Source of the DNA: Methanobacteriota archaeon
Lineage (GTDB): Archaea > Thermoplasmatota > Poseidoniia > Poseidoniales > Thalassarchaeaceae
DNA length: 34,862 bases
Direction: 5' to 3'
NCBI GenBank assembly: GCA_002698225.1
Contig: NZWD01000013.1
Location: forward strand, 1-34,862
Part shown: in pieces, positions 16,219 through 20,692 of the stretch
Position numbering within the stretch: position 1 is the first letter of the stretch
How the letters are laid out: each line of letters opens with the position of its first letter
The notes under the pieces: model-generated
The model's input: the letters and a program-made list of their open reading frames with translations, nothing else
Told to the model about the DNA's origin: nothing
Database searches by the model: none
Program-made: the position numbers and the translations under genes

Positions 16219-16259
16219 GACTCTAGGGGCTGAGATTGCGACTTAGCATTGGTGGTCCG

Positions 16260-16280
16260 CCTAGACTATATTCATCTAGG
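16260..16280. promoter_or_regulatory. Candidate bidirectional promoter/operator: TATA-like core inside a perfect 6-bp inverted repeat
   Basis: CCTAGA-ctatattca-TCTAGG (16260-16265 / 16275-16280) between divergent SBP (start 16218) and permease fusion (ATG 16305). Confidence 0.45.
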
Positions 16281-16304
16281 AGTCTCGGGACAACGAGGAT
16301 TGCC

Positions 16305-18485
16305 ATGTTTGAACGGGTCACTCGGTCCCCACGACCTAGGGCACCTCTAGTGAGTCGTGCAATTATCATTGCAATGCTGATGGTTTTCGTCGCTCTCGTT
16401 TCGCCGAGTCAAGCTAGGGACTTTGAGAGCAGTTGGGTTGTAGTCGAAAGCGGAACCTCGGAGGACCTACTCACCGCTGTTGATTTCGAAAATCAGGTCT
16501 GGGCATTCGGCACCGGGGGCGTGATGCTCAACAGCAGTGACAATGGAATTACCTGGGAAAGTGTGGAATCGCCGACAAACTACGATATTCACCATTCTGA
16601 CTCAGGATTTGGTTCACTAGTAGTCGCCGATGATTCAGGACTGTTTCTCCTCAAGCAAAATCTAGAATCGGAATGGTTGGATATTTCCTTGCCCGAAGTA
16701 TCTCAAGTAAATGGAATCTCTCTGTTAGGAGATCAGAGCGTTGTAGCTGTGGGGGACGGAGGAGCTATTTTCAGATACTCAGAAGGAGTATGGGAGAGCT
16801 TTTCACTAGCTATAGAAGTCGACTTGATGGCGGTTTCATTCTATGACGATAAGTCTGGAGTGATTGTAGGATCCAGTGGCACAATTCTGTTATCTGATGA
16901 TGGAGGTTTGACTTGGGATTATCGAGAAGCTCCTGAGGGAGCAGGAGATACGGAAATCATCGCGGTCGAGTACTACAGCATAAGCAGGATTTACGCGATT
17001 ACCGGTGACGGTCGGATCCTAATGTCTGCGAACAATGTTGCCCAAGGCATCGAGGTCGGTTACATATGGGTCTTAATTGACTTCGAAAGGCATTATCCTC
17101 CTGGTAGCGATGAACCCTTGCTAGATCCTTCCGACCTAGATGTTGAGTTGACTTCAGTTCAGGTGGTCACCACTACCAAATTGATGATGACTGGGGCTGG
17201 AGGATACCTGTCAATTAGTACCAATGGAGGATCTATCGTCTCACAGCAGATCAATCCCTTAGGCAGCGACACCGACTTCAACCATATCCACATGCTGACT
17301 GGATTCGTAGGCATAGCCGTCGGGGACGATGGGGCTATACTCTGGACTGATAATGCCGGAGTCGATGATCAAGTCGGCTTCTCAGTACCCGACTACGAGA
17401 ACTTCGGGGTATTCGTCGATGAGACGAAAGAGATGTTCCTAGGTGGGTTCATCGCGACGGTCAAGATTGTTGCTTTCGGAATCATTCTCGGATTCTTCCT
17501 TGGAGTGACTCTAGCGATGTGTAAGACCTCCCCGACGTCCCTGAAATATCTGGTGGAACGTTTCCAACCAATGCAAGTCAAGGCTGCGGGAGTTCCAATA
17601 CTATTTGCTGGCCTCTATATGTTCAACACGGCCATGCCCGGAACTAGAGGCCTTGGTCTGCAAGGCATTGAGTACATTTTCCTCCCTGTGGGCGCTCCCG
17701 AGTCGTTCGCGAGAATCCTTCTGGGAATCGCACTGACTTTCGTGGGATTGTTGTTCTTGAGCAATAACGGCAAGTTCTCGAAAATCAAGATTAGGTCATT
17801 TACATTGAACCCCTGGAGAGTAAGGCCACTGAACACTATAGCGACCGTGTATACTGACTTCTTTCGGAACACTCCTCTGATAGTACAATTCTTGTTCCTC
17901 CATTTTGGGCTTGAGTTAGGCTCTATGATCAAGACTCCGGGTTTGGAGTATTTCAGTTTCGAGAGATTGGAGCAAGAACACAACTTCATCACGGACATCT
18001 TCGCCACATACGACCACTCCGAGGACAATTATGGAACTCTAATCGGGGGATTGTTCTACGACACAGCATTCATCAGCGCATTCTGCGCACTGGGATTCAA
18101 TTCCGGAGCCTACCAGTGTGAGACTATCAGGGGAGCCATTCAGGCCATACCCTCAGCTCAGATGGAAGCTGGAAGGAGTATAGGTCTGACATACCTCCAA
18201 ACCATGCGGCGAATTATTATGCCCCAAGCAATCAGAATCTGCATACCTCCAATGGGCAACGAGATGGTCAATTTGGTCCTCAACTCGTCGCTTGCGATGA
18301 TCATCGGCTACTCCGAGATCACTAGGCAAGGCAAGTTGATTGTTGCCACCACATTCCAGTACGCATATGCTTGGGGAATGGTCCTGATATCGTACTTCGT
18401 GGTTACATGGACGCTTGCGGTCTTCCTGAGGTGGATGGAGGAGAAGACTAGAATACCGGGATTGGGAATATCAGGAGGTGATTGA
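16305..18485 (+). CDS. BNR/Ycf48-like beta-propeller fused to polar-amino-acid ABC transporter permease (ORF track start 16236; ATG at 16305 preferred)
   Basis: N-terminal hydrophobic segment AIIIAMLMVFVALVSPSQA; propeller blades VGSSGTILLSDDGGLTWDYREAP, AFGTGGVMLNSSDNGITWESV, GVGDDGAILWTD-type; permease DFFRNTPLIVQFLFLHFGL, EAGRSIGLTYLQTMRRIIMPQAIRICIPPMGNEMVNLVLNSSLAMIIG (EAA loop). Confidence 0.9.
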   Translation: MFERVTRSPRPRAPLVSRAIIIAMLMVFVALVSPSQARDFESSWVVVESGTSEDLLTAVDFENQVWAFGTGGVMLNSSDNGITWESVESPTNYDIHHSDSGFGSLVVADDSGLFLLKQNLESEWLDISLPEVSQVNGISLLGDQSVVAVGDGGAIFRYSEGVWESFSLAIEVDLMAVSFYDDKSGVIVGSSGTILLSDDGGLTWDYREAPEGAGDTEIIAVEYYSISRIYAITGDGRILMSANNVAQGIEVGYIWVLIDFERHYPPGSDEPLLDPSDLDVELTSVQVVTTTKLMMTGAGGYLSISTNGGSIVSQQINPLGSDTDFNHIHMLTGFVGIAVGDDGAILWTDNAGVDDQVGFSVPDYENFGVFVDETKEMFLGGFIATVKIVAFGIILGFFLGVTLAMCKTSPTSLKYLVERFQPMQVKAAGVPILFAGLYMFNTAMPGTRGLGLQGIEYIFLPVGAPESFARILLGIALTFVGLLFLSNNGKFSKIKIRSFTLNPWRVRPLNTIATVYTDFFRNTPLIVQFLFLHFGLELGSMIKTPGLEYFSFERLEQEHNFITDIFATYDHSEDNYGTLIGGLFYDTAFISAFCALGFNSGAYQCETIRGAIQAIPSAQMEAGRSIGLTYLQTMRRIIMPQAIRICIPPMGNEMVNLVLNSSLAMIIGYSEITRQGKLIVATTFQYAYAWGMVLISYFVVTWTLAVFLRWMEEKTRIPGLGISGGD

Positions 18486-19277
18486 TTGCCAGAAAATGTG
18501 TTGGAAGTAGAGGATTTACACATGATCTACCCTGGAGGGGTGCATGCCGTTAGAGGGATATCATTCAATGTCAATGAAGGTGAATCGGTAGCTATAATCG
18601 GTTCTTCTGGCAGTGGGAAATCAACCGTTCTTCGCTGTATTAATCGATTGATTGAGCCAACTGAGGGAATAGTCTCACTGAAGGGAGAACAGATCAACAC
18701 CCCTCACACCGATGTTAACAATCTGAGGTCTAGAATAGGGATGGTTTTCCAGTCATTCGAGTTGTTTGCCCACCTGAAAGTATTGGACAATGTAACACTG
18801 GGGCTGAGGCATGTCAGAAAGATGAGTAAGGGGGAAGCCAAGGAGCGTGCGCTATCTGTACTGGAGCGTGTGGATATGCTCGACAGGATCGACGCCTATC
18901 CAGGAAACCTATCAGGTGGCCAGAAGCAGAGAGTTGCAATTGCACGGGCTCTGGCGATGCAACCTGAGGTATTACTGTTCGATGAGCCAACCAGTGCCTT
19001 AGATCCAGAATTGATTGGTTCGGTACTTGAGACCATTAAAGGGTTAGCAGAAGAGGGGATGACGATGCTAATCGTAACGCATGAGATTAGCTTTGCTAGG
19101 GATGTTGCTGACAGAGTCATCTACATGGACGAAGGAGTAGTAGCAGAGGAGGGTCCCTCTTCGATTATCAACAATCCAAAGAGCGAGCGGCTCAAGAAAT
19201 TCCTCTCATCACTGCACGAGGACGAAGTCCCCGAACAAGTGCATGAAGAAGGGAGCGAAGCTACTGGTGAGAGGTGA
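18486..19277 (+). CDS. Polar amino acid ABC transporter ATP-binding protein (GlnQ-like), TTG start
   Basis: Walker A GSSGSGKST, Q-loop VFQSFELFAH, signature LSGGQKQRVAIARAL, Walker B VLLFDEPTSALD, H-loop IVTHE; directly abuts the permease stop. Confidence 0.95.
   Translation: MPENVLEVEDLHMIYPGGVHAVRGISFNVNEGESVAIIGSSGSGKSTVLRCINRLIEPTEGIVSLKGEQINTPHTDVNNLRSRIGMVFQSFELFAHLKVLDNVTLGLRHVRKMSKGEAKERALSVLERVDMLDRIDAYPGNLSGGQKQRVAIARALAMQPEVLLFDEPTSALDPELIGSVLETIKGLAEEGMTMLIVTHEISFARDVADRVIYMDEGVVAEEGPSSIINNPKSERLKKFLSSLHEDEVPEQVHEEGSEATGER

Positions 19278-19309: not shown

Positions 19310-20692
<1,383 letters not shown>

Follow-up and report, generated by a model that had tools for sequence, protein, structure and literature searches.

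Gene content of the locus

The window, the whole 34,862-nucleotide stretch of Thalassarchaeaceae DNA that was analysed, carries a gene in which a beta-propeller is joined to an ABC permease, followed by an ATPase gene and faced by a divergent gene for a solute-binding protein (SBP; table 1). The earlier note had described one uninterrupted reading frame with a hydrophobic N-terminal segment, a propeller and a HisM/GlnP-type permease with its EAA loop, and this was confirmed by the reading frame, Pfam, AlphaFold2 and the alignment of relatives. An alternative in-frame TTG lies at 16236, and most close relatives start at the position of ATG 16305 or a few codons from it.

Table 1. Positions of the features in the window, with residue numbers (res.) of the fused chain.
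Feature	Position	Strand	Basis
Propeller-permease fusion gene, 726 aa	16305..18485	+	uninterrupted ORF, ATG 16305, stop 18483-18485
N-terminal hydrophobic segment, res. 15-33	16347..16403	+	KD 2.51; alignment of relatives
Seven-bladed Ycf48-type beta-propeller, res. 38-358, predicted extracytoplasmic	16416..17378	+	AF2, Foldseek, Pfam PSII_BNR
Short conserved linker from blade 7 to TM1, res. 359-376	17379..17432	+	alignment across both families, ungapped
GlnP/HisM-type ABC permease domain, res. 377-720	17433..18464	+	BPD_transp_1, NCBIfam, PDB 4yms
Lineage-specific insertion between TM1 and TM2 that adds a TM hairpin, res. 404-502	17514..17810	+	alignment, model
EAA loop QMEAGRSIGLTYLQTMRRIIMP, res. 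619-640, coupling helix to ATPase	18159..18224	+	alignment of relatives
GlnQ-type ABC ATPase, directly downstream	18486..19277	+	Pfam ABC_tran 134 bits, NCBIfam GlnQ 281 bits
Divergent, circularly permuted SBP with C-terminal TM anchor, 323 aa	15247..16218	-	profile matches, residue comparison
86-base spacer separating the divergent SBP and permease genes	16219..16304	.	read from sequence
Glu/Leu/Phe/Val dehydrogenase gene (context)	19310..20686	-	neighbourhood comparison

The GlnQ-type ATPase gene adjoins the propeller-permease gene in relatives too, and the dehydrogenase gene adjoins the system in the Thalassarchaeaceae loci read but not in the second family described below. Further upstream, window:6994-12642 encodes a protein of 1882 aa that has, by reading, an N-terminal hydrophobic stretch and a C-terminal TM segment; a homologue of this gene precedes the propeller-permease locus in the relatives read. 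On one contig of the second family (L097), a peptidase-like gene lies near the system.

Domains of the fused protein

The hydrophobic segment at residues 15-33 is preceded by an arginine-rich stretch and followed, in the alignment, by a signal-peptidase-like A-x-A/AQ motif, and is predicted to be a signal peptide or an N-in anchor. Pfam PSII_BNR was matched at 53.5 bits in two stretches (cut-off 27), and BPD_transp_1 was matched in the same chain at residues 505-711 with 68.5 bits (cut-off 26.4). The AlphaFold2 model, computed with 26 relatives, had seven blades at residues 38-358 with a mean pLDDT of about 90 for the propeller. When this propeller was searched against the PDB with Foldseek, the best twelve matches were all Ycf48 structures (E 4e-15 to 7e-13, TMt 0.70-0.73), in agreement with the BNR/Ycf48-like assignment made at first reading.

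The permease half of the model was poor, with many blocks below 50, and the permease assignment therefore rests on sequence homology. The NCBIfam permease domain HEQRo_perm_3TM was passed at 52.0 (cut-off 42.2), the GlnP, EhuC and cystine-permease NCBIfam models were matched at E ~1e-31, under their equivalog cut-offs, and PDB 4yms was matched at E 2.7e-27. The EAA loop, which faces the ATPase, is near-invariant in the alignment (QMEAGRSIGLTYLQTMRRIIMPQ). The insertion between TM1 and TM2 is missing from the second family and longer in some genera. Extra membrane segments of varied length between TM1 and TM2 were seen at columns 480-760 of alignment A1 (L020-L022, L025, L027, L051, L056 and L057) in several genera. 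Most likely, the fused protein serves a type I (polar amino-acid) ABC importer as its membrane subunit.

Residues 34-387 contain 11 K+R against 56 D+E, and residues 407-466 and 486-523 are rich in K/R. These positive-inside counts place the propeller and the permease N-terminus outside, and both charge and topology thus uphold the extracytoplasmic propeller that had been proposed, as a prediction from sequence.

Distribution and conservation

The fusion was found at full length, in a single frame and without internal stop, in more than 40 metagenome-assembled genomes from several sequencing projects and two families. Of the genomes matched under a record title, most are titled Euryarchaeota archaeon, and two are Candidatus Thalassarchaeum betae. 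The domain order named in the earlier note thus recurs in many genomes that are independent of one another, some of them from a second family of the class, and the absence of the junction from close relatives for which that note had allowed was not observed. Within Candidatus Thalassarchaeaceae (MGIIb; f1) six genera carry the fusion (g1, g4, g6, g7, g9 and g11), and it was not found in genera g2, g3, g5, g8 and g10 in a phylum-wide scan. The second family (f3), outside the window's order as kinship was labelled, carries it in genera g22 and g23. The fusion was not found in the genomes sampled from f2, which is read as Poseidoniaceae, or in the rest of the phylum as sampled. In a plasmid search 2445 records were matched, none covering at least 80% of the query in one place.

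The propeller is under strong purifying selection (dN/dS ~0.06-0.18 in ten pairs), and its distances closely follow those of the TM core (Mantel r 0.90, P 1e-4, n=29). Across 77 columns around the junction of blade 7 and TM1, no indel separates f1 from f3. Identity between these families is ~25% in the propeller and ~58% in the TM core, the propeller evolving faster. With a profile based on f1, the f3 propellers scored 218-220 bits, and the best propeller-only match outside both families in that scan scored 63.8 bits. The simplest reading would be one origin of the fusion; either vertical loss in f2 or transfer could then account for its absence there. The draft of the window genome is only 67.9% complete, but the same in-frame fusion in more than 40 genomes, from several projects and two families and with the propeller under purifying selection, rules out chance and leaves a negligible probability to a missed stop, a frameshift or an assembly chimera.

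The permuted solute-binding proteins

In the SBP adjacent to the permease, the halves are in swapped order with the C-terminal half first. Residues 172-284 of the SBP of L096 (f3) correspond to residues 10-117 of PDB 4ZV1 and residues 29-139 to residues 118-232, the two blocks abutting. When the halves were reordered to the standard arrangement, for sequence comparison only, two stretches at 92.6 bits became one stretch at 112.8 bits. TIGR01096 was matched in the same protein first at profile positions 133-248 and then at 17-132, and on these alignments the circular permutation in the second family is beyond doubt. The window SBP matched TIGR01096 in swapped order as well, more weakly (E 0.006 for the N-half and 2e-5 for the other). 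The matches of the permuted SBP are to amino-acid type II SBPs, both SBP_bac_3 halves being present and the standard order absent. Foldseek with the model of the permuted SBP gave PBP-like matches at low TM (~0.3) and was uninformative on the permutation, since its alignment is sequential.

The SBP is under purifying selection (dN/dS 0.07-0.12). All full-length stand-alone permuted SBPs found adjoin a propeller-permease gene, divergently. The reverse does not hold, as an adjacent SBP is missing from many of the propeller-permease loci of Thalassarchaeaceae. A permuted SBP cut at its 5' end was seen in G351 (L138:2644-4254) beside a tyrosine-recombinase-like gene; neither a propeller-permease nor an ATPase was seen in the 8 kb around it. 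Arg77, Asp161 and the GTT loop, which are taken here to be the amino-acid-binding residues of HisJ/LAO, were compared in five f3 SBPs, all of which retain them, and in ten adjacent SBPs of Thalassarchaeaceae, that of the window included, all of which have lost them; two adjacent SBPs of g11 retain the Asp and part of the GTT loop, not the Arg. Divergence of propeller and SBP is weakly correlated (r 0.35, identity-based). The SBP of the window shares 72% identity with its L039 counterpart and 54% with that of L041, whereas the TM core shares 79% with L039 and 91% with L041, and this mismatch of lineages suggests that SBP exchange or recombination may have taken place at the locus.

A permuted domain fused to LivK

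In the window genome, L064:7433-10624 (contig C6) encodes a lipoprotein of 1064 aa with a permuted SBP_bac_3 domain and two LivK-type domains. The fusion is in general a lipoprotein of ~1050 aa with the SBP domain in front of the two LivK-type domains, and its gene lies upstream of a fused LivHM permease. By reading of the translation, L064:10735-14475 is a single chain of 1247 aa in which LivH and LivM are fused, and the LivG and LivF ATPases follow it. The earlier note, whose architecture and outside propeller stood, had missed both this domain and the permutation of the adjacent SBP. In the LivK-fused domain the circle is opened elsewhere, the domain beginning near profile position 67. Its junction linker is related, and it is 43% identical to the L096 SBP, as against 20-25% between that protein and the Thalassarchaeaceae adjacent SBPs. 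The amino-acid-binding residues are kept in all six examined, so that the domain is putatively ligand-competent; it may feed the propeller-permease, and could also serve the adjacent Liv permease.

Among 55 Thalassarchaeaceae genomes the LivK-fused permuted SBP was present in 36 of the 39 with the propeller-permease and in one of the 16 without it. The Fisher P was 1e-9 at genome level, which overstates independence because related genomes share ancestry, and 0.015 at genus level. The exceptions are G036, with the LivK-fused SBP and no propeller-permease, and three genomes with the reverse. LivK proteins of ~395-410 aa, too short for the extra domain, occur in g10 and some f2 genomes, all without the propeller-permease. 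A second amino-acid ABC system, AapJQMP-like by reading, was also seen (L099, L100 and L103-L105). Its two permeases are long, at ~500-910 aa, and gave no reported match to the propeller.

Comparison with known systems

In GlnPQ-type importers, SBPs are fused to the N-terminus of the permease. An extracytoplasmic domain ahead of a PAAT-type permease and a separate GlnQ-type ATPase chain are shared with the present system, but the fused domain here is a seven-bladed propeller and the SBP is separate, tethered and permuted. No SBP match was found in the propeller-permease chain with Pfam or NCBIfam, and a fusion of the GlnPQ type was rejected. The permease family, the EAA loop and a GlnQ/ArtN-type ATPase are shared with Art(QN)2, HisQMP and GlnP-type PAAT systems (PDB 4yms), and the Art(QN)2 homodimer has a single permease gene, as here; the present system adds the N-terminal propeller and, in Thalassarchaeaceae, the further TM hairpin.

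Ycf48 is a factor for the assembly of photosystem II that binds its partners through conserved arginines (PMC8038367). The seven-bladed fold, Asp-box blades and the extracytoplasmic side of the membrane are common to Ycf48/HCF136 and the propeller, whereas the latter is fused to a transporter, acidic and without a photosystem. The Ycf48 equivalog NF010237 scored 48 bits against a cut-off of 326; on this score and the acidity a true Ycf48 was rejected as the function, and the fold was kept on the Foldseek matches.

TpMglB-2 of Treponema pallidum is a natural circularly permuted sugar-binding ABC receptor, in which the permutation was tied by its authors to tethering (PMC4990184). Natural permutation of an ABC receptor and a membrane tether are shared, but TpMglB-2 has the type I sugar-binding fold, whereas the present protein belongs to the type II amino-acid SBPs and is anchored by a C-terminal TM segment. 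Two MGII studies name livK and aapJ as characteristic of Thalassarchaeaceae or as highly transcribed (PMC9723583, PMC6336850); these systems belong to the same organisms, and in the parts consulted neither the propeller-permease nor the LivK-fused permuted SBP domain is described.

No propeller-permease family was known to the earlier note, and no account of one, or of a permuted type II amino-acid SBP, was found in the open-licence literature. Both are likely to be new, although this is not proven, as the scope was the open-licence literature and bacteria were sampled through plasmids only.

Proposed role of the propeller

The fixed outer propeller is tentatively regarded, at slightly below even confidence, as a docking platform for tethered permuted receptors. 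Since there is a single permease gene, the permease would form a homodimer and two propellers would stand above the outer mouth of the channel, held at a fixed height by the ungapped junction. If the propeller closes in the usual way, both chain ends would lie on one side, which from the strand order would be turned toward the membrane, with the other side toward the receptors. The propellers would dock a receptor that cannot diffuse freely because it is tethered, and position it over the channel. The adjacent permuted SBP would be this receptor in the second family. In Thalassarchaeaceae, where that SBP lacks the binding residues, its task has probably passed to the permuted domain fused to LivK, so that one multi-domain receptor may feed two importers.

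Docking is preferred on account of the linkage, the fixed geometry and the analogy with other SBP-dependent importers. Domain order and outside location, recurrence in two families, linkage to the SBP, the permutation, the pattern of kept and lost binding residues, co-occurrence, purifying selection, the fixed junction and the correlation of propeller and TM distances are consistent with it; counted against it are the low-confidence permease half of the model, the r of 0.35 between propeller and SBP, the loci without an adjacent SBP, G036 with the three reverse genomes, and the shared ancestry behind the genome-level P. A more far-reaching form is considered doubtful. In it the propeller would be an obligatory docking adaptor for tethered permuted receptors, and the multi-domain LivK receptor of Thalassarchaeaceae would be shared by two ABC importers, reaching one of them by way of the propeller.

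The propeller could instead be a receptor itself, binding a peptide or other ligand and gating or stimulating transport or handing cargo to the channel. Ycf48 structures include D1-peptide complexes, by their PDB entry titles, which gives the fold a precedent for peptide binding; Thalassarchaeaceae are thought to live on proteins and peptides (PMC9723583, PMC6336850), and their adjacent SBPs lack the amino-acid-binding residues. This role is nevertheless unlikely, as conservation in the propeller peaks mainly at G and W residues that build the blades, with few conserved polar residues, and the second family has what appears to be a normal, ligand-competent SBP. When loop conservation was compared between the top and bottom of the propeller, neither face stood out.

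The propeller might also help the permease to which it is fused to assemble or stay stable, as a cis version of the Ycf48 role. This would fit the best fold matches, Ycf48 working outside the membrane on membrane-protein assembly (PMC8038367). It is the weaker reading, and quite improbable, because it would be unusual for a chaperone to be joined permanently and one to one to its client, here through a fixed junction without gaps, and because the strong acidity of the propeller is unlike Ycf48 with its required conserved arginines (PMC8038367). Only R207 and R228 are highly conserved among the propeller arginines, and these may or may not correspond to the Ycf48 patch.

Lastly, the propeller might recruit other proteins at the cell surface, for example envelope proteins or extracellular peptidases, and so place the importer beside its nutrient supply. 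This would be in keeping with the protein-protein contacts that propellers commonly mediate and with the secreted peptidases prominent in these archaea (PMC6336850). It is considered improbable too, and slightly more so, as the Thalassarchaeaceae neighbourhoods read showed no recognisable peptidase gene next to the system, the peptidase-like gene on L097 being from the second family, and the linkage with permuted SBPs is left unexplained.

The system would enlarge the range of known ABC importer designs by an extracytoplasmic propeller, and would provide a type II amino-acid receptor that is circularly permuted in nature. The question of how a tethered receptor finds its transporter becomes testable. 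The hosts are uncultured archaea that are abundant in the sea and whose presumed food is dissolved protein and amino acids, and the findings suggest that the livK transcripts reported to be highly abundant in them may reflect two transport systems.
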